A stretch of 64,000 bases of DNA from Zygnema cylindricum (lineage: Eukaryota > Streptophyta > Zygnematophyceae > Zygnematales > Zygnemataceae), in assembly GCA_037447655.1 (NCBI GenBank), contig JBBHKE010001592.1, forward strand, positions 33,481 to 97,480, written 5' to 3'. Below the pieces are notes generated by a model. That model made no database searches and had not been told where the DNA came from. It saw only the letters and a list, made by a program, of their open reading frames with translations. This document shows, piece after piece, positions 484 through 62,498 of the stretch. The stretch's first letter is position 1. Each line of letters begins with the position of its first letter. The translations under genes and the position numbers were made by a program.

Positions 484-3400
484 ATGGAAACCCTAAAACC
501 TCCTTTTTTCTCTCTCACTTCCTCTCTCTTCCTTTCCCTCTTCTCCATAGTTTCTCTTCCCTCTTATTCTACACTTGTTTATTCGTACGATTATGTCTCA
601 GATTCCCGCACAGATCCTTTTTCCAACTCGAAAAATTCAAATTTTAACCCTAACCCTAACCCTAATTCTGATTTAACTTCTGGTCTTTCCCTCGAACTCT
701 CTCACGTTTTTAACGACAAAACTCTCAGAAAGCTTGGACTTAACAGAACAGATTTTCGTTTCCATGATCTTCTCGCCTTACGGGATTTTGAACGACATAG
801 AAACATGGAAACTGTCAATAAGAGAAGGGAAATGACTGAAGAAGAAAGGGAAATGTATTCTAAATTTCCAGAAATTGTTAAAAGAGAAATTCTTGCCACT
901 GGAACATCGAGCGCAACTTCAAACTTTCCGTTATTCCATTTCCATTCCATTCCTCTTCCTTTCCACCTCCTCCTTCCTTCCTTCTTTCCATTTCTCTTTC
1001 CATTCCTCATTTTCTCTCTTTCTTTCCTCTCTCCTCCCTCCTTCCCCCCTCCCTTTCCTCCCTTCCCTCTCTCCCTCTCCCCCTCTCCCCTTCTCTCTCT
1101 CTTTCTCTTTCTCTTTCTCTTTCTGCATTTCCTTCTCTGTCATTTCCGTTTCTCCCAGTATTTTTCTGTGTAGGAAAACAAAACAGGAACCTCTAAACAA
1201 AGGTTAAACAAATACTTCACATAATTTTTTTCTCTAAATATAGAGTAAACAAATATTTGTACTTTGGTTTCTGACCAGACTCTACCATACGCTTATTATT
1301 ACATTGGTCTCTCTCTCCCTCTCCCTCTTCCCCCTTGCTCTCTCTCCCTCTCCTCCTCTCTCTTTCTCCCCCTCCTCTTCTCCCCACTCTATCTCTGGAC
1401 CAGACTCCACACCAATATTGACCTTACATTCCTCTCCTCCCCCCTCTCCCTCCTCTCTCTCTCTCTCACCCAGCCTCTACCGCACCACTATCGGTATTGG
1501 GACTCCGGAACAAACTTTTAATGTGGTCATTGACACGGGAAGTGTGTTGACTTGGGTCAACTGTCAGCCTTGCGATTCTTGTATTACTTCCCGGTTTCAG
1601 GTATACACAGTTTTTGTTGTTTCAGTTTTAACTCTTTTGCCCTCCCTCTTTATTTTTGTTTTTAGGTTTTGCTGTTTCCTGTGTGAATTCTGCTTTGTTT
1701 TGGTTTGAAGCTTTTCCTCTCCCTTTGTTTTTGTTTTTTTTTCCAAGTTTTTGTTGATGTTCCTATTTGTGTTATTTGTGTCAGTTTGAAGCTTTTTCTC
1801 TCCATTTCTGTTTTGTTCTTTTTTGTTTTTTTCTAAATTTTGTCCTATGTTCTTACCCTGTTTTGTTTTTTTTGACACCGTGAATCAAATTCTCACAAAA
1901 TTCTCATCTTCTTTTCATTTTCTACCACAGCAATTAAGTAGTCCATTTGATTCATCCTTATCTTCGACTGCATCTTTAGTGAGATGCAATACTCCTGCAT
2001 GTAATATGTCGTTTGTCCCTCCAACTGGATCTACGGACGATTGTCTCTCCGTAAATGTTGAATATTGTACCTATGGTATTCTTTACAATGACGGGTCCTC
2101 TACCAATGGACTTATAATTGACGACCAATTCTGGTTAACATTATATAATTCCTCACGACGAGTTTCTATTCCGTTCAATTTTGGGTAAGTTCCGTTTTGC
2201 ATTTAAGTTTCTATTGCAATTCTTATTGTTCTTCTCTACTTGTTGGAGTTTATTTTTAGGTTTATATGCCAATTTTTTTTGAGTCAGTTGCTGGCATTTG
2301 TTTTGGTGTTTCTATTCCAATTCTTTAAGTAGGTTGTTGATTTTTTTTTTCAAGTTTCTCAACCCGTGGTTGATAAGTTGTTGGAGTTTACTTTATGTTT
2401 CTATTTCTAATCATTTTGAGTAAGTTGGGATTTCTTTTTACTGGTTGTAGAGTTTAAAATTGGCCATATCTTTCTTTTTGTTATTTTTACTAATCGTGTT
2501 GAGAGAGTATCTACATTCTTATTTTTTCAAGAGTGCAGAAGGAGAGGGAGGGAGAGAGTGAGAGGATGGGGCAAGAGGGGGGATTGGGGAAAGCGGGGCA
2601 GGAGAGGGAGTGGGGGAGAGAGAGAGAAAGGGCTGTGGCAAACGGTGGAGAGGATATGGGGGGAGAGAGAGGGAACAGGGGGAGGAATAGGGGATGGGGC
2701 GTATGTTGATTGAGATGATTGTATGAGGGTCTTATTGTTTTTGAATTTTTAAGTGATTTTGGACACTGCTTGTTAATTTCGGACATTGTTCATTGATATT
2801 TGGACATTGAATATTGTGTAGTTGAACATTGTATATTGATTATTGGTCATTGTTAATTGATCTTCGGATATTGTTAATGGATATCTGGACATTGCTAATT
2901 GCTAGCTGTAAATTGTATTTTGACATTGTTATCTGATGTTTGGACGTTGTTAATCATGCCAATTGATATTTTGGACATTCTTAATTGATATTTGGGCATT
3001 GCTATGATATTTGGACATTGTTAATTGATAGCTGGACATTTTTAGTTGATATTTCAAGTGTTGATTGATACTTGAACCTTGTTCATTGGCATTTGCACAT
3101 TTTCATTGGTATTTGGACATTGTTTTGAACATAGTTAAGTGATATTTGGACATTGTTAGTTCATATTTTTACATGTTAACTGATATTTGGGCATTGTTTA
3201 TTGTATTTTGGACAGATGTGGGATATCTCAAAAAGGGCCTCTTTTGACTAGTGCCGGTTGGACGGTCCTTGATGCAGTGGACGGTCTTTTGGGACTTGGA
3301 AGATCTAACGCGACCGTTCCATATTTTATTGCCAAAAATAGTACAACTGGTATCCGGTACGTTTTAACTTTCAATTAAGTTGAATTCCAATTATGAATTC

Positions 3401-4468
3401 GATTTTTGAGTTTTGAATTTAAATTTTGGATTTGAGTTCGAATGCTGAATTTGAGAGGGAGGGTTATTACACCACCCGTCGCTATTCGAGTTAATCACTC
3501 CAATCGTAGGTAGTGTTTTTTTGAACCATTCATAAATCAGTAGTGTTAATAACACTATTTACGAAGGTGGCCCACAACAAGCTGCGTTATCAAACATAAT
3601 TTAGCGTATTTAATTATAATAAAGTGTTAACGCTGATATTTCATCAACTCTAATAGCGATGGATGGTTCAGTGTTACATATCGGCCGGCATTTTTCTGAT
3701 AAACCCGAGATATGTTTTTCGGTTTGACTTTCTTCCGATCATTATTTTTGTTCTCATTGTTGGATGCAAAAATCTTAAGTGCAATAAATTTATTGAGTAA
3801 CGCATGTCAGACTATGACTGATCATCTGTATTAAAGTCTGTAAGTCCAATTTTACCGTACTTTACCGTGAATCACTACTAGAGGTGCATAGAAAAAATTA
3901 GACATTAAAAATCATCAGTGCGGGGGTTTGGTTTTGACTTTGAATTATTATCAATGTGGATGATTGCTAACCACTAATAGAATTTGTTTTATAAGAAAAT
4001 TATCTAGTACTATTAGCGTTTTTTTGTGGTCAAGAGTTCGAAAAAACGGCGCCAAATTAGACCTTGCATTGCTATAAGTGTTTTTGAATAACTGGGGTGT
4101 GAGTATTAACTACACTGAAGTATTTACTGCGATGTCGCTAATTCCAGGCCATCTACTTCAGCAGTGTTATTGGCACTATTTTATGATTTTGGGGTAAGAA
4201 AAACCCACAGTCAAATTAGAGTCATAAACCCGAATAGCAATTCAAAGTGTGCTGCATATTTTTCAGTAGCTCCTGACCATCGGTAATTGTTCCTTTCAGA
4301 TTACCGGTGCACAAAGCTTTCCAAAGATTAACTTGTCAATGAGGATTAATTCTGTTTCATGTTTGTCTTTCTCTGTCTCTATCCCTCGACCTCTACCCCC
4401 TGGATATTATATGTGTGTGTATATATATATATATATATATAACCTTCCCTGACTCAAAACAAATTCTG

Positions 4469-4517
<49 letters not shown>

Positions 4518-7500
4518 GTGTATAAGTATTCTTGTATATATGTATTATGTATTGTATGTATGTACCTTCTGTAACCTTCCCTGATTCGAAACATAGTTCA
4601 ACAACCAGAGGAGATATCAGCAGTGATATCTATGGAGGAAAAACGTATGATATTCGATACAGGGGCAAAAACATCTGCAATAGTCGATACGGACCTTTAA
4701 AAAAGATTGAAAACTATAGTGTTCTACGATACAAAAAAAATAATTACATGGAACATCCTAAATCGGAAACAGAAATTCGTAAGTACACCTTTTACAGTGT
4801 TGTGATTTGCATTACATAATGTTTTTATAATAATATTTGGTGCTGTTTTTGGAGTACCTGCGTATGTTACTGACCTGTAGCGAATCGCAAGATAAAATAT
4901 CGGGCAAAAAACGATGCGCTAGTATCACTAAATGTTATATATTGGGGCACCCTGTTTATATTTATTGTATATATGCTTCAAATCCAGTTGATTATTTTGA
5001 GGCCGATTGTTGTAAGCTCGATGAAGGGTTTATGGGGAACCGGAGAAAAAGAAGGGGGACAAGAACTTGGAAAACTGAGTTCAAACCTTGTCAGACCTTC
5101 TCATATACTTTCCTCTTTCATGTATTCTTGTCGTAGGAATACTAAAAAATTATTATCCGCTCCTCCCCATCTCCTTCTTCTCCCCCTCCCTCTCTTTCTT
5201 AAAACTTAATTTTGCTTAGATAAGATGAAATAAACCCTAAAGTTTATGACTCCTCTGGTCACAGAGTTTCCAAATCTTTCTCTCCCATCTCCCCCTCCGC
5301 CCTCTTGACTGTTTTTATAACTGTTTTTATTACCGATTTGAATATATATTTTTGTGCAGTAATGTTTTTACTCTTTGTTTACGAACGGGGAATGGAGGAG
5401 GATTGTTGGCATTTGGGGACAAACATGTTCCAAAAAGCGCAATTTATACAGATTTAATCGCAGACAGCAAGTCAGTATTATCGTTTTTTTCCCACCGTGT
5501 TTGCGATGATGGAAACACGCTTCTTTAAATTGATTAAAGTGGCATAAACTTTTCCTGTGCTTAACATCAATTATAACTGCTTGGAAATTGCTCAAATTTG
5601 TCGCTTAAGTTTGCCTGAAATTGCGTAAAATTGCTTTAACTGCTTAAAATTGCTTACAGTTTTGCTTAGGATTTGCTTAAAAATTTCCAAAGCCGGTCAA
5701 TATTTGAACAAAGTTGGCTAAATTTTGCTTACAATTTCTCTTATGACAACAGTTTTCGCCTTATTAGAACACTTTTTGCCTTATGGAAACTTGCCATTTT
5801 TATGTTTTCTTTTTTTCCAGATATTATCATGTGAAGTTAGCGAGGATTTTTGTGGGTGGTCGCTCTCTCTCTGTCCCCCAAAAAGCATATGGGGATATCG
5901 AAAGTGGAAATGCGGTATTTGATAGTGGCACAACATATACTTGGTTACATCCAACACTACAAAAAGCCATTATGAATATGGTATATCTTTTTTTTCTCTC
6001 TTTCTCCTTGGTTTTTTCATCCCGGTCTTGTTCAACTCGATTTTGGTTTTTTCGTCCCGATTCTGGTTTTTTCGTCCCGATTTTGATTTTGTCTCGATTT
6101 TGGTTTTTTTATTTTGTTTTTGATTTTTTCTTCTCGATTTTGGTTTTTTCGTCTCGATTTTAATTTTTTCATCTTGATTTTGGTTTTTTCGTCCTGGTTT
6201 TGCTTTTTTCGTCTCGATTCTGGTTTTTTGATCTCGATTTTAGTTTTTTCATCGCGATTTTGGTTTATTCATCATTTTTTCATCTGGTTTTTGGTTTTTT
6301 CACCTCCATTTTAATTATTACATCTTGATTTTGGTTTTCTCGTCTCGATCTTGGTTTTTTCACCTCCATTTTGGTATTTTCCACCGCGGTTTTGGTATTT
6401 TCCACCGCGGTTTTGGTATTTTCCACCGCAGTTTTGATATATATATATTTTTTTGTTGGGTAACTTATTGCCAGGTTCAAACCGTTTTTTAGGTCATTAA
6501 AAGTATATTTTAGGCTAAACTTGAAGAAAAGGAAAGAAGAAAGATGAAGCAAGAAAGAAAAAACGTGAGGAAAAGAAAAGAAAAAAGGAAAAAAAGAGAA
6601 CAGGAATAAACTGAAGAATATTGAAGGGGATCAAAGACGAGAAGAAAAGAAGAGAAGGGAAGGAGGAAAGAGAAGAAAAAGTGGAAAGAAAAAAATTTCT
6701 TCTTTTTAAATTTTGTTTATTTTTACTATTATTATGTTTGTAATTTGTCTGTTTTTTTTTTTTTTCAGATAAAATTGAGAGTGGGATTGCAGCCTTCTGC
6801 AGATAATTCTCCCCCAAATACGACGACAGCTGGATACCTCTGTTATAGGGAAACTGACAGGTAAAATTACCTTTTCTTTAACCCCTTTTTTTAACCCCTT
6901 TTTTTCTCCTTTAAACACATTTCCTGCTTTTTTTACACTTTTCCTGATATTTTGTACCCTTTCTGTTTTTTTACCCTTATCTTTCTTTCTAGCAAAAGCC
7001 AGGAGGTGAAATTTGAAATTTTGACATTTTTTTCTTTATCCATGTTTAGTTTTTTAGGGCTCTCCCGCTTTTCCTGTCTCTCTCTCTCTCTCTCTCTCCC
7101 TCTTTCTCTCTTGGTAGGAAGTTCTTGTTTGCTGTTAATTTGAAACATTATATTTCTAAAATCCTGTGTGGGTCATTCTGTCTTTCCCTCCCCCCCTCTC
7201 TCTATGTGTGTGTGTCTCTCTCTCTCTCTCCCTCTCTCTCTCTTTACCTCTCTCTCTTCCTCTCTCTCTACCTCTCCTTTCTCTTCTTTTCTCTCTTGCC
7301 CTCTCACTCTCTCACTTCCTCCTCTCCCTTCCCCCCTCGGATTTTCTTTTTCAATATGACTTTTTCCAAACATAAAATTGAATCATTTTTTCAATCACCT
7401 CCTTGTTTCTCCCTCTCTTTCTCCCTCTCTCTCCCTCCCTCTCTCCCTCTATCCCTCTCTTCCTCTCTTCCTCCCTCTCTCTCAGCCTATCCCTTGAGTC

Positions 7501-32238: not shown

Positions 32239-33596
32239 AAGAGAGAGAGAGAGGCAGCTCTCCTCGTTCTTAAAAAAAAAAAAACGGAACAAATTGTTGG
32301 TGACTTTCCGGATAAGCTGGAAACCTGACGAGTGCAAAAACTCTAAAATTTCAGACTCTTCCTTACCCATATGGAGAACATATTTGTAGAAACATATACA
32401 GAAATCTTACAGAATTTTTAATAAAGAGACAGCAACGATAAAAGTAGAGACTCTGCCTTACCCAGATGGAGAACGCATGCACTCCCTAAAGATGCGCCAG
32501 CGAGTAGGAACTGTTGTAAATGGATCAGAATCAAACAATGCCTGTTAAGCAAGATAAGACAAAAGACACGGATATCAGAATCAAATTATGTCAAAACTCT
32601 TTAACAACTACACAGTCAAGGTGATAGTCAAAGTGAGGCCAAGTCAGTAACCTCCAGCTCATTCTCATAAGAAATAAAAGTAGAAAAAACCGGGCATTAC
32701 AAGATTTAAAGGTTTTGGAGGAATCCGTCACAGTTTATGCATAATATTGCTAAGTTTATCCAACAGATTTAGGGTTTTTCAAAAAAGTGTCCCATACGTG
32801 CGAGAAAAATAACATACTCCATGCAGTGATGACATGGAAAGATACACTATGAAAAAGGATGTTTATTTACAAAAGAGGTCGAATATGCTAAGGTTATAAA
32901 GACTTAAAAAACAGCAAAATCCATAAGGACCAAATTTTCCAAGTTGAAAATATTACTTCAACGAAATAACCAATGACAAATTAATCACAAATAAAAACCT
33001 GGAAGTTTATAAAGTAAAAAACTTCCAGGCTTTAGATCTCAGTTGATCAAAAGAAAAGATAATTGTTGACGTTAAACCAAAGTCCGTCAGCATTACAGGG
33101 ATACTCTTAGAGTAAAAAACATTTTCTGCTACAGCGACATCAGCTTATGAGTCCACAGAACTTGAAGACCGAAATAGGTTTATATTTCTACTTTTGATTA
33201 GGTTGACCGAAATGTGTCAGCATTACAGAAAATTTTCAAAAATTACGTCCTTTTTTTGCAGCAATAACGACAGCTTATATTCAAATTTACAAAAAATGCA
33301 GACCTGAATAGATAAAAATCGCCATTGCTCAAAATAAGGAGTTTTTGTTTCGTTAACCAAAATACAACAGCATCACACAGATGTTTTCAAAATGTACTTA
33401 TTTTTTCTGCAAGAATCAAGCCAGCTTAGGTTGAAGTCTACAGAAATTTTGATTTGCAAACCTGAATCACATCCTCCAAGCGATCGTTGCAACGATGAGG
33501 GCGAATTCTAGGTATCCTGCTATCGGCTAAATCTGCCACGTGTGAACCAGCACCAGCCGTACTATCTCCAGGAGATGATTTTGGTGTGTCGGCCAT
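31947..33596 (-). CDS. Small protein of unknown function, 3 exons, 96 residues
   Basis: Exons in minus order: 33,596-33,462 (start ATG), 32,541-32,462, 32,022-31,947 (stop TGA). Phases 0 and 2 agree at both joins. The product begins MADTPKSSPGDSTAG, continues with RCNDRLEDVIQALFDSDPF and RWRIFRECMRSPSG, and ends in a charged tail (KEASEEDHSGKASQ). There is no signal peptide or membrane segment. I do not recognise the family; the central LEDVIQALFDSDPF...RWRIFREC block has the look of a conserved small eukaryotic protein. The first two exons are convincing; the third has a poor polypyrimidine tract and is less certain. It precedes RecG on the same strand. Confidence 0.55.
32190..32252 (+). repeat. 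(CA)n/(GA)n microsatellite in the small gene's intron 2
   Basis: A short CA run, then GA repeats on plus, giving CT on the sense strand upstream of the last exon. Confidence 0.9.
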
Positions 33597-39829: not shown

Positions 39830-49974
<10,145 letters not shown>

Positions 49975-54924: not shown

Positions 54925-56150
54925 GGGAGAGAGAGAGAGGAGATGGAGCAGGGAAAGGAGCTAGAGGGAGAGGGAGAGGGAGAGGGAGAGAGAGAGGGAG
55001 AGGGAGAGGGAGAGGGAGAGGGAGAGGGAGAGGGAGAGGGAGAGGGAGAGGGAGAGGGAGAGGGAGAGGGAGAGAGAGAGGGAGAGAGAGGGAGAGGGAG
55101 AGGGAGAGGGAGAGGGAGAGGGAGAGGGGAGAGGGAGAGGGGGAGAGGGGAGAGGGGAGAGGGGAGAGGGGAGAGGGGAGAGGGGAGAGGGGAGAGGGGA
55201 GAGGGGAGAGGGGAGAGGGGAGAGGGGAGAGGGGAGAGGGGAGAGGGGAGAGGGGAGAGGGGAGAGGGGAGAGGGGAGAGGGGAGAGGGGAGAGGGGAGA
55301 GGGGAGAGGGGAGAGGGGAGAGGGGAGAGGGGAGAGGGGAGAGGGGAGAGGGGAGAGGGGAGAGGGGAGAGGGGAGAGGGGAGAGGGGAGAGGGGAGAGG
55401 GGAGAGGGGAGAGGGGAGAGGGGAGAGGGGAGAGGGGAGAGGGGAGAGGGGAGAGGGGAGAGGGGAGAGGGGAGAGGGGAGAGGGGAGAGGGGAGAGGGG
55501 AGAGGGGAGAGGGGAGAGGGGAGAGGGGAGAGAGGGGAGAGGGGAGAGGGGAGAGGGGAGAGGGGAGAGGGGAGAGGGGAGAGGGGAGAGGGGAGAGGGG
55601 AGAGGGGAGAGGGGAGAGGGGAGAGGGGAGAGGGGAGAGGGGAGAGGGGAGAGGGGAGAGGGGAGAGGGGAGAGGGGAGAGGGGAGAGGGGAGAGGGGAG
55701 AGGGGAGAGGGGAGAGGGGAGAGGGGAGAGGGGGAGAGGGGAGAGGGGAGAGGGGAGAGGGGAGAGGGGAGAGGGGAGAGGGGAGAGGGGAGAGGGGAGA
55801 GGGGAGAGGGGAGAGGGGAGAGGGGAGAGGGGAGAGGGGAGAGGGGAGAGGGGAGAGGGGAGAGGGGAGAGGGGAGAGGGGAGAGGGGAGAGGGGAGAGG
55901 GGAGAGGGGAGAGGGGAGAGGGGAGAGGGGAGAGGGGAGAGGGGAGAGGGGAGAGGGGAGAGGGGAGAGGGGAGAGGGGAGAGGGGAGAGGGGAGAGGGG
56001 AGAGGGGAGAGGGGAGAGGGGAGAGGGAGAGGGGCGAGGGGCGAGGGAAGAGGGAGAGGGAGAGGGGCGAGGGAAGAGGGAGAGGGAGAGAGAGAGGAAG
56101 AGGGGAGAGGGAAGAGGAAGAGGGAGAGGGAGAGAGAGAGGGAGTCAAGT
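54925..56150 (+). repeat. Purine minisatellite: GAGAGG hexamers then AGAGGGG heptamers
   Basis: Hexameric (GAGGGA)n at 54,965-55,130 gives way to about 125 copies of the 7-bp unit AGAGGGG (55,140-56,025), with rare one- or two-base slips, then mixed units to 56,150. Neither strand of the unit can form a stop codon, so the 400-codon frames on both strands are artefacts. G4 tracts spaced by AGA could fold as G-quadruplexes, and the strand asymmetry allows triplex DNA. It lies about 240 bp past the 3' end of the CH-LysM gene. Confidence 0.95.
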
Positions 56151-56393: not shown

Positions 56394-59300
56394 TTACCGC
56401 TTCAATCGGATTGTCTGTTCAGGATATATTAGGTCTGGATTTAGAAGTTCGGGGTTGCTCTGATGAAGTTTTCGCCAATTCTCAACCCTCGTTTTCTTGG
56501 AAATATCATACAATGTGTCTCCTTCTTTTACTCGGTAGGTTTGATATCTGTGACATAGAACGATTTCTTAACACAACAAAGTATCCTCTCTCCCAATGGA
56601 ATATTTGACAGTAACCAGAAAACTTGGACAGTTGTATCAAAAAGAAAAAAGAAGAGCATATGCATTCTAGATAAAATTAACCAAAACCGGCCCATTTGTT
56701 ATTATTCTCAAGGAAGCAAATGAAATGCAATCGTTGGAGTGATATGATAAAAATACCTTCAGGCTGAGGCGAATATACTTGACATAAAAGTCGCCCTATC
56801 CCTTATTAAGTGTAACTGTAATCTAGTTTAACAATGCTTGCAAAAAGAACTACCATAACATACTTCATTCTGTTTTGATAGACCGGCGAGGTCAAGCATA
56901 ATAGTAACGCAAGGGCCTACCCACAAGATTCAGCATGTGAGGCTGCTGTACAGTATAAAGTTCGGATATTGGACAAAAAAATCGGTTCAGCTTTTCCTAG
57001 TAAATTGAATTGAATAGTTATTGACCCGTCATTTAACTAAAGGTTTTCCAATTGAATTTGACATATTATTTCTAGGTTGTTTGTTTGTAGTTCAACAGTT
57101 TCTGAATATGTAAATATGTTTTAATCAATTGTGCCATTTCAAAATTACTTGATGACAACAAAAACAATGCATTTCAAATTTTATGTTTAAGTCGTGGACA
57201 AGATAAAATTTTTACTGCATTGCATTTCAGGGGTTGAAAACTCGGGATTGAGACTGTATTTGTGATCTCATTACGGATTCTATAAGTTCGTGAAAGTAAG
57301 GAAAGTTTCTTAGGGTGAGAAACTAACAAGTCAGTTATTTAAGTTTCTTAGGGTGCTGATATTTGCTGCTTGATTCTTGTACAGTTTGTTGTTAAGTGCT
57401 CTTTCGTTTACCGTAACTGAATCAGAGCAGACAACTTTCAAAATTGTGTACTATTTTGTTTACACAAATATGTACAAAATTCAAGTATAACATTTGATTA
57501 TTATTCTTAGCACATCATCAATCACGATCAATTTAATTTACCATTTCTTATTACCACTATTAATGCTTCTATTATCTATTGGAAAGAGTTCATACTAAAA
57601 CAACATATATGCTAACTGTTTGCATTAGATTTACGAAGTTTTTGTTAAAGTCAATTTGTTCAATGAAAAAATGGACACAGGTATATATTACATATAGGCA
57701 CACACACACACACACACACACACATAATTTTGCAACAACTAAAAAGAGCACAGAATTATAGAAGCTTATTCCCACTATTCTTGACACACAGTGTGCCGGT
57801 TTTCACAAATGAGTGTACCTTTGCCTTCTTGAAAACAAAAACATGCCACTTCCGAAAATGAAGGCGACTCCGAACCCAAGAACCGCCCACTTTGACCCAC
57901 GACGTGTTTTCTCATCATTAAAAGGCGCCTTTGCCACTTCATTGTCTTTGTTCCACCTTGCTTCCTGCAATATCCAATCCCTGATCAGTAAATTTGCAAA
58001 GGTTTCATGGAGCATTAGAAAAGAAAAGACGGAAGGAAGAGAAAGAAAGATGCACAACGATTAATAATACAGGAAATAAATTGACAAAAAACAAACACTT
58101 ATGAAGGTACATACACCAAATTTTTGGAACCATGAAACATGAACAGACTAACAACAAAGATGTACTTCAAGAACAAAATGGTTTGCCACTCTGGAAACGA
58201 GCTACGATGCTGCTTTACACAGACATAAATTAAAAGAAAAGGGTGAAATAAAATAGAGTACAAACATGTAATATTTGCAAGGACAGGGGCCAACCTTATT
58301 CCCTTCCGTTGGAGAATCTTTTGTCTAATAAGGCCGCCTTACATGTTACTACAGAGTAAGATTTATATACTACCCCGAGCTCTTTAATGGTAAGCCACAT
58401 GTACTCCTAAAACATGCATGCAAAAAGACTTAATGTTTAGGAAAATGGTTTGCATGCAATGCATTGATACCGAGCAAAAACATATTTTGAACTTCTTTCC
58501 TTTTGCAAGCATAACTGTTTTGGTATCGAGTCGAGCTAAATGAGAGACATGCCTCAGCTTTCCAAATTGAATATGGTTTATCCCATGTTTGGGAAATGTG
58601 CCTACCGAGTTCTTAGCACATGGATTTCTCCCTAGACTGGACATAAAGCAAAGCAAAATGCCATTGCCAAGAATATCACAGCCAAACAGTAGCATCTAAT
58701 TGAGCCAAAACTCTCAAAAGGCATCACAACAATAGTCAGACCTGTTAGACGTGCTTTTGCAACAGAAAGATAAATCTGACCAATTCCTTGCCCACAAATT
58801 AATACACATACACAAAGGCGATATCCAACATCATACAGTTGTTAAGAACCTAAAAAATTATCTGCTCTCTTTATAAATTCTGCACCTTATTTCCAGGAGT
58901 ATCAGGGGATGCTGGAAGTCCCCGATGTCTCCCAAAATCTACTGTCTTGTAATTGGATCCCTGGAAGAAATTGTTTGCAAACCAAATGTCAATTGTGAAT
59001 AATGGTAAAGCACTTTCAGTCGCAGTGATTTCAACATCTTAAATTGTAACACCAAAAACTGATTATTTGACCTTGAAGGTTAATAAACTAGGGACAGGAT
59101 AACCTCTTCAAGACATGAAACCAACGAGGCACTCTAAAAACCAAGCATTTCATAATGGATCTAATAGTGAATCTACCTGGCAGTTTCTGCAACTCTGGTT
59201 TAAGGACTCTTTCATAACAAAGACAAGAGCAGCATTGTTAACCAGACCTTTGCTTCCAAAAACGTCTTTGCCTTACTAGTTTGATGAAACATTTAGAGCA

Positions 59301-62300
59301 AAAAGAGTAGCTCAAAAAAGCAAGATATCAAATCAAATCTACTTAATAACGACCAAAGGTAACAACAAGCAATCCATGGAAATGCTTCCTGAAAGGGGAA
59401 TTACACTGTCGGGATTTACCCACGATTTATGGGTAACACGAGTATTTGTAAAATCATACAAAATTTTGATAATTGTAAGTTACAGGGTACAGACAAAACT
59501 GTATAACTACCCAGAAAACGAGGGTAGACAGTGCAATTCCTTTATGATATCAAACAAGTCACCTGCTCTTTTAGAAGCTCCTCCGGAATTGCAACTTTGC
59601 CAACGGTAACATCAACATCGACGGTAATGGCCTTTTCAGAAGCAGCTGCTGATTCTAGAAGATCCTTTTTGACAGACTCTACTCGCCCTTTGGACCGTAT
59701 TTGAACAGGCATAGATAATGCGTCATCGAAACTTGGTACCTGCAAACAAAAAAAAAAAAAAGATAATCATGCTTGGAATCATGCCTTCCTATGAGAGTTG
59801 TAACTAAAAGAGAGTAAGGCCGTGAAAGCAAAAATAAATCATCGAACAGGTCAAGCCTTCCCAGAATGCAAAGAGCTTTAATACATAGGAGGTCATTAAT
59901 CTAAGCGCAGATTGCAGTACAGGTCGCAGTAACCAGGGCCGGTAACAGGCATTTTAGCACCTTGCTGACCTAGTTCAGTAAATGAATTATTGAATGCAAT
60001 CATCAAAAACTTCACGCTTCTGGTTCCTATTTGAACACTTATAACCGGTGGCTGCAGATAACATACTCAAAAGCACTAACAAACAACCAATATTTCCATT
60101 GTGTTGCTAATGCAAATAAAAACACAGTCTTTTAGTGTTGTCCTTGCATGTAAAACTAGACTTGACATCTATCATTCTCTTGCATGAAAGTCCGCTATGC
60201 ACATCTGTAACCTTATCATCGGTTTAAGTAAAGATATAAGTCAAAAAAAACATACCGCTGGATTTGCTGCCCTAGCCTTTTTTGCTAAAGCACGAAAGCA
60301 CAGACACACCCTCTTTATGTCCTTTTCTTGCACCACATCCGTGGATGAAAACAAATCAAGTGAAGGCACTCCAATATCTTTGCACATCTACACACCAGAA
60401 GGAATAAAACATCGTTAGTGTGCTACTTAAGTGGTGAAATAATTTTATTAGAGGGCCATTCATTAGCCTGAAGAACTTGACAGCCTTCAATGAAATTATT
60501 ACTAGTGCAAGCTGTGACATTGAGACCGGCGAAAAGCTCACACAGGATTGAAATGAGAGGAGCGACACCATGGCTCTACAAAACTGCATGCCCCTGTTCT
60601 CTGTTTTCATTTTCAGGAAGCAGTTTTCTACTTGGTCATCTCAGTGCTTCCACAAAAATTACAAGTACTTTTCTTCTTATATTTCCTGGGTTGCTGGTTT
60701 TCCTCCTCAAACATCACTTACCTTTTCTCCACTGCACCTACATCGCTATTAGAGTTGATGAATTACAAGCGTTTAAGCGGATTTAGTATAATGCTTTGCA
60801 CGTGGCTCATTATAGGTCACTCAAAACTATTTAGTGTTATTAACACAAATTTATAAACTTGGGTCAAACAAGCACGCTCTAATTAGAGTTGTCAACTCTA
60901 TGTTTAACACTTTACAGGGCGATTATTCTGGCACAATCTTCAAGTAACTTTTCTCCGCTGCACTTCTGCGACTAGCAACTGCCCAAGTGTTTGTTGTTCT
61001 TTAAAGACTTTAACGGGCTTTTCACCTTTAAAAACCTCTCCACATTAGCCAAGCAGGACCAACCCGTAGCAGCTCGAGATGGGCTTCCTGAGGCTCCAGA
61101 CCCTGACCCAACACCTCCTTCACCGGGACTTTGAACCAGCTTCCCAATCTTTGCTGCTACATTTGACCTGTCAGTCGAACAACAAATCTCGACACAAGGT
61201 GTCACCATAACCAATGGATTTTTCCTTTAGCAACAACATCATCAGTAACAAAACAGTACCACCCTGAAGTTGCTAAATTCAAAATTAGAATCACATTTTC
61301 ATGAAAGATCAAGACACTATTGAAAAGCAACGGATCGACCTCCAGTGACGCCAATTGGTCCTTTCATCAGCCTATCCCCAGACAATTGATGTGATCTGAC
61401 CAACATTGTCCAACCTTCCTACCAGAATTACAAGGATTCAAATGAAACAATTCAGATTTCAACATATCAAATTTCTGGCGCTGGCAAACCTTCCCCCTCG
61501 ATTTTGCAATTATTGTCATCAGATGTTGAACAAAACACAAGGCTAAAAATCTAGGAAATGCCCAAAAGAAGAATTCAACTAACCCAACTAGCTCATTTTT
61601 AGGCAAGTAACCACATAAATCACCCAAGGGACAGCGCAAATAACCCATGGACAGGAAAAGTCACTCCGGGAAAAAAGAAAAACCGAGAGAGAGAAAGGAC
61701 AAGACTAAAGTTTGTTAACATAGAACATAAGAAGCTATGAGGACGGCAATTTTTCAACCAACTGCTCCTTTACCTGACAGTTGGATAGTGTAAGGCTCCA
61801 CATTTAAGATTGGGTACTACACAGTAACAAATGTAGGATATCTTTAGATTCTTATGGATACTCACAGAATCTGGCCATCGGCAAGAATTGCTGACAAGCT
61901 CTTGTCACTTGGTAATGGCTGTTGAACAACTGCCTCCAACCATATTCTGGCCCGAGCCTGTCCACCAGGAATACTATCCAGCAATGTGAATCATACAGAA
62001 ATAACCTCGACATTGGTTGCATGATCAAGGAGGGATCAAGTTAGGAATCCTTCACATTCCACACCAATTATGATAGTCAAGTGAAATTTTATTCTGCTAT
62101 AATTATTAAGTATGACTGCAGTACTTGGTCTATGAGTGGTCCCCATGTATTAACCTATTTCATGAATTTCGTTAAAACATTATGGGGTAATGACAATTGT
62201 ACGACTGAAGAGCTAGGTAAATTGTCGATGGCATGGTAAAAAGGCTAGGATTGCAAACACTTCACTAGTATAACAATATCTTCCCTAATACTAAAACAGT

Positions 62301-62498
62301 GTATATTCCTTAGTCTAAAACGGTGACTTTCACGAGCCCCATTAACTAAAAACTGAAATTGAGAAATTGCCACCATTGTGACGTGGAAATGATAATAGAA
62401 ATTAATTATTGTGACTGAAAGAATGCTGAATTTCAAGACAAGAATGTCGTTTTACAAACCTGAAGAAAATCAAGGTCTTCTTGAACGAACGTGGCCAT
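56394..62498 (-). CDS. Calponin-homology + transmembrane + LysM protein, 8 exons, 318 aa
   Basis: Exons, minus order: 62498-62460, 61957-61866, 61167-61026, 60387-60256, 59739-59563, 58960-58886, 57964-57819, 56547-56394 (stop TAA). All GT-AG sites and phases (0,2,0,0,0,0,2) agree. Residues about 14-135 form one calponin-homology domain: ARIWLEAVVQQPLPSDKSLS, AILADGQIL, ANVERFLKMCKDIGVPSLDL, VVQEKDIKRVCLCFRALAKK, with a Gly/Ser insert (GVGSGSGASGSPS). Residues 136-244 are a linker without recognised domain. Residues 245-263 (WAVLGFGVAFIFGSGMFLF) are a hydrophobic membrane segment with basic residues on both sides. Residues 272-318 are a LysM domain (YRVKEGDTLYDIS ... LHQSNPELLNPDLIYPEQ). No N-terminal signal peptide. 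CH domains bind actin or microtubules and LysM binds GlcNAc polymers, so a cytoskeleton-to-glycan linker is an inference. The first exon (13 codons) is the least certain. Confidence 0.75.
57700..57723. repeat. (CA)n microsatellite
   Basis: Short CA run in the intron before the LysM exon. Confidence 0.9.
60734..60915. mobile_element. Possible diverged MITE in the CH-LysM gene intron 3
   Basis: Left part CACCTACATCGCTATTAGAG resembles the inner terminus of the copy at 3,470-3,674. The right end is poorly conserved. Confidence 0.35.

Follow-up and report, generated by a model that had tools for sequence, protein, structure and literature searches.

In a 64,000-nucleotide stretch of DNA from Zygnema cylindricum (contig JBBHKE010001592.1 of assembly GCA_037447655.1, forward strand, positions 33,481 to 97,480; hereafter the window), a gene at 62498..56394 on the minus strand joins a calponin-homology (CH) domain, a hydrophobic segment that probably spans a membrane and a C-terminal LysM domain in one predicted protein of 318 amino acid residues. 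The gene is real and its architecture is conserved in two sources, the second being a protein of 320 residues, P0001, which contains all three parts in one frame. The product is most plausibly a transmembrane linker that combines an actin-type CH domain with a bacterial-type LysM domain. We tentatively place it, at somewhat short of even confidence, in the plastid outer envelope, where a cytosolic CH domain would sit on F-actin and the LysM domain on plastid peptidoglycan. An initial annotation made from the nucleotide sequence had proposed a direct linker between the cytoskeleton and a wall, and that interpretation as a whole is partly supported.

Gene structure and conservation in a second source

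When the exons were rebuilt from the window, the 6.1-kb gene was found to consist of eight exons and seven introns with a spliced coding sequence of 957 nt, open throughout and encoding 318 residues followed by a stop codon. All seven introns have GT..AG borders, reading on from any of exons 1 to 7 into its own intron leads to a stop within 90 bases (7/7), and the G+C content amounts to 0.40-0.53 in the exons versus 0.33-0.39 in the introns. An in-frame TGA is the second codon upstream of the ATG. The eight minus-strand exons with consistent phases that the initial annotation had predicted were therefore borne out by the rebuilt coding sequence, the intron borders and P0001; similarly, the join that it had considered critical, between the membrane exon (exon 7, ending at 57819 in phase 2) and the LysM exon (exon 8, starting at 56547), is in frame in the rebuilt coding sequence. 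Intron 7 is the longest of the gene (1,271 bases). Its retention (57819 onward) would yield a CH-membrane product lacking the LysM domain and ending in SRRQRYTHL, four residues past the junction codon; such a product is a possible short tail-anchored isoform.

P0001 was obtained in a search with the full-length protein and shows 83% identity over 100% of the query. In a tblastn comparison it aligned to all eight exons with their order kept, and gap columns occurred only in exon 3 (three) and exon 5 (one), the exon junctions being free of gaps. Because P0001 carries both the CH and the LysM part in one frame with gap-free junctions, their joining is conserved and does not stem from faulty splice prediction, and a chance joining of open reading frames was rejected. 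Identical columns amounted to 102/125 for the CH domain, 89/109 for the linker, 15/19 for the membrane segment and 45/49 for the LysM domain, which is the best conserved among these four parts. P0001 is encoded on seven contigs, the longest of 2,310 bases, and it is probably a spliced transcript. The gene in the window takes up 6.1 kb and has seven introns, whereas the frame of P0001 is unbroken within contigs no longer than 2.3 kb, for which a transcript is the simplest explanation; possibly it is instead an intronless gene copy.

In the full-length search, two proteins were reported from 2,542 candidates, P0001 and P0002, the latter spanning 14% of the query. A second search gave 11 matches at E up to 10 from 7,995 proteins scored, ten of which cover 13-15% of the query, and when residues 1-142 of P0001 were used as query, P0001 alone was reported, of 230. 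In these three protein searches no relative beyond P0001 covered more than the LysM part, in a database that seemingly holds few plant proteins, so that rarity is not implied. Also, no relative was found in genome contigs (60 stretches) or viral contigs (159 stretches), both non-plant collections, each searched with only a pair of short patterns taken from residues 1-100.

The CH domain resembles that of GAS2

Exon 1 (62460..62498) encodes residues 1-13, with the start codon at 62498, and is 77% identical to P0001. The CH domain starts in exon 2 (61866..61957; 81% identity), continues through exon 3 (61026..61167; 72%), where a Gly/Ser-rich loop differs in length from that of P0001, and ends in exon 4 (60256..60387; 93%). 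In a Pfam scan of residues 1-142 alone, PF00307 was detected at residues 16-130 with 37.3 bits against a gathering cut-off of 26, and the N-terminal part of P0001 alone likewise passed the cut-off (31.8 bits). However, full-length Pfam scans of the gene product and of P0001 did not list the CH domain in either protein. The CH domain that the initial annotation had placed at about residues 14-135 thus stands when the N-terminal part is scanned by itself and is absent from the full-length scan, and the profile search on which that annotation had let its claim depend gives an outcome that varies with the scan. Because PF00307 is lost at full length and clear on the N-terminal part, automatic annotation of such proteins may list the LysM domain only and miss the CH domain; the database listing of P0001 shows PF01476 only.

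By sequence, the nearest solved CH domain is the single CH domain of GAS2 in its F-actin-bound structure (9kbx), and the same structure was the best structural row for the CH part in a tentative comparison of predicted folds. A fold of P0001 from its single sequence was not usable (predicted local distance difference test, 36.4); with window exons 2, 4, 5, 7 and 8 as added rows, exons 3 and 6 (misaligned) and exon 1 being left out, the gain was mainly in the CH part. In the list of structure-database matches to the CH domain, two of the 12 chains are not from CH proteins but from OSR1 kinase (E 0.19 and 0.23). We infer a GAS2/IQGAP-type CH domain that would bind F-actin. GAS2 itself differs from the present protein in having a GAR domain, and it is not known to contain a membrane segment or a LysM domain.

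A single hydrophobic segment follows the linker

A linker of about 110 residues separates the CH domain from the membrane segment. It is encoded by exon 5 (59563..59739; 88% identity to P0001), exon 6 (58886..58960; 56%, the lowest exon conservation) and the beginning of exon 7 (57819..57964; 84%), which also encodes the membrane segment and its basic flank; no Pfam match was obtained for the piece from linker to membrane segment. The segment at residues 245-263 (57833..57889, minus strand, derived by hand from the exon table) has a mean Kyte-Doolittle hydropathy of 1.93. Over stretches of 19 residues, the maximum of the protein is found at 246-264 (1.94), against at most 1.03 elsewhere; the segment named in the initial annotation is the sole strongly hydrophobic stretch in the hydropathy scan.

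Since both 20-residue flanks carry a net positive charge (+2/+2, and +1/+2 in P0001), the topology is left open by flank charge. If the CH domain is cytosolic, the LysM domain has to be located beyond the membrane. The initial annotation had called the topology ambiguous and the LysM domain possibly cytosolic; the basic residues on both sides agree with this, but one spanning segment separates the two domains. The tail of 55 residues after the segment has a net charge of +6 and an isoelectric point of 10.1 and is free of cysteines and sequons; of the five residues directly after the segment, three are basic. A tail-anchored protein was rejected, as such proteins are usually defined by a shorter tail than the 55 residues present here. 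An N-terminal signal peptide was not apparent by eye.

The LysM domain is closest to bacterial LysM domains

Exon 8 (56394..56547; 92% identity to P0001) encodes the LysM domain and the stop codon. In the full-length Pfam scan, PF01476 was found at residues 272-316 (56403..56537, minus strand, derived by hand) with 29 bits versus a gathering cut-off of 20.9, in agreement with the C-terminal LysM domain (272-318) of the initial annotation, and 34.1 bits were obtained when the LysM part was scanned alone. Among 23 matches of this part in the PDB at E up to 10, LytE came first (E 1.2e-9 over several stretches), followed by 6ve2, SafA, Kbp and TsaP. The score against the NCBIfam model for SafA (38.9) was below the family cut-off of 67.85. 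Also below their cut-offs were the two plant receptor models listed, LysM2_NFP (20.5 versus 36) and LysM3_LYK4_5 (14.1 versus 29.3), so that, judged by these cut-offs, the domain does not qualify as a plant LYK/NFP receptor LysM domain. Its sequence pattern, which it shares with SafA, LytE and similar proteins among the best PDB and NCBIfam matches, indicates a LysM domain of bacterial type, nearest to bacterial LysM domains, although those proteins are bacterial coat or wall proteins.

A possible linker between actin and the plastid wall

The closest described protein, compared here by description only, is PPASP, which combines a hydrophobic membrane segment with a C-terminal PF01476 LysM domain (PMC4815162, 2016), as does the present protein with residues 245-263 and 272-316. 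In that paper, segment and LysM domain are each described for 17 of the 18 family members, and PPASP is reported to be confined to streptophytes whose peptidoglycan pathway is near-complete, among them all embryophytes that have the synthesis pathway, and to be lacking from taxa retaining only a four-gene remnant. PPASP has no apparent transit peptide, and its authors speculated that it resides in the outer chloroplast membrane in contact with the N-acetylglucosamine (GlcNAc) of a peptidoglycan intermediate (PMC4815162), an idea repeated in a review (PMC7432710). In contrast to the present protein, in which 244 residues (CH domain and linker) precede the segment, the published description gives PPASP two domains, with the membrane segment at the N-terminus, and includes no CH domain; the word calponin does not occur in the main text of PMC4815162. 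Plastid peptidoglycan has also been connected with DipM, a LysM-LytM protein from moss and a glaucophyte that has peptidoglycan hydrolase activity (PMC4015805). Evidence suggests that numerous photosynthetic eukaryotes, ranging from glaucophytes to ferns, synthesize plastid peptidoglycan (PMC9434261), and knockouts of peptidoglycan genes in moss disturb chloroplast division (PMC4815162). Literature searches pairing CH or calponin with LysM, in which the papers listed were judged by title or opening of the abstract, revealed no protein with both, and a search on LysM domains in connection with the cytoskeleton and membranes of streptophytes found nothing.

We propose that one gene encodes a single-pass membrane linker in which an N-terminal GAS2/IQGAP-type CH domain would be cytosolic and F-actin-bound, the linker of about 110 residues would lead to one membrane helix, and the bacterial-type LysM domain would act across the membrane on a GlcNAc-containing glycan. 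As the membrane, the plastid outer envelope comes first, with not quite an even chance of being correct, and the plasma membrane second, as an unlikely choice. In the outer envelope the LysM domain would face the intermembrane space and grip plastid peptidoglycan, so that the actin cytoskeleton would be tied to the plastid wall in chloroplast positioning or division. CHUP1 is an actin-linked outer-envelope protein that is not known to contain CH or LysM domains, and the present protein would likewise link F-actin to that envelope. It is conceivable, if somewhat improbable, that such an actin-to-peptidoglycan bridge arose when a membrane-LysM protein resembling PPASP acquired a CH domain. A basic flank is a trait of signal anchors of the plastid and mitochondrial outer membranes, but the hydrophobicity of the present segment is at or above the limit of 0.4 stated for them (PMC4010795); the resemblance is suggestive at most.

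Alternatively, and with rather low probability, the protein may reside in the plasma membrane, with the CH domain on cortical actin and an apoplastic LysM domain that would bind GlcNAc glycans, chitin-like or other, in the cell wall or on microbes. LysM proteins of plants are well established as sensors of peptidoglycan and chitin (PMC4815162), and the hydrophobicity of the segment is at or above the 0.4 limit exceeded by more than 85% of endoplasmic reticulum signal anchors (PMC4010795). However, the closeness of the LysM domain to bacterial LysM domains rather than plant receptor models, its lack of cysteines and sequons and the lack of an N-terminal signal peptide apparent by eye do not favor an apoplastic domain.

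Cytosolic eukaryotic LysM proteins of the LYSMD and OXR1 types offer a model in which the LysM domain would be a protein-binding or non-wall module and the segment merely an anchor, which we consider unlikely. The topology left open by the basic flanks would permit it, and Kbp, named as a potassium-binding protein, is among the LysM matches, but a single spanning segment would put CH and LysM domains on opposite sides, the best LysM matches come from wall and coat proteins of bacteria, and it is the LysM domain that is conserved best. Quite unlikely as well is a location, with the same topology and a ligand still unknown, in another endomembrane or the outer membrane of mitochondria; to our knowledge, no LysM glycan ligand is known in those spaces, even though the basic flank is common to mitochondrial and plastid signal anchors (PMC4010795). 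An error of the gene model, with CH part and LysM exon derived from separate transcripts, is very improbable, because the length of intron 7 and the CH-membrane product predicted from reading through it are outweighed by the occurrence of both parts in the single, 83% identical frame of P0001 with its gap-free junctions.

Surroundings of the gene

A repeat array with a 7-base unit (plus strand, GGGAGAG) in about 171 copies occupies 54966-56136, beginning about 260 bases beyond the stop codon of the gene. Exons of a plant-type aspartic protease are located at 1244-6160 on the plus strand, with TAXi_N and Asp matches and TAXi_C just below its cut-off. Exons of a dynamin-family gene are found on the minus strand at about 39830-49011, with PF00350 scoring 34.2 bits at 48053-48553 and 25.4 bits, below the cut-off, at 48565-49011; the assignment to this gene, presumably similar in sequence to plant DRP5A, of open frames reaching as far as 39830 is a guess. 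Both neighbors count as plant-type features and agree with a streptophyte source. No tRNA was found in the window, nor any Rfam family at its gathering score.

If actin-type and peptidoglycan-type domains indeed lie on opposite sides of one membrane, the protein from Zygnema would be a concrete candidate for the means by which a host cell might grip the wall of its plastid, and a bridge from actin to plastid peptidoglycan would give a eukaryotic cell a handle on a bacterial wall. Were the protein located in the plasma membrane instead, cytoskeleton and wall would still be connected by a single protein.
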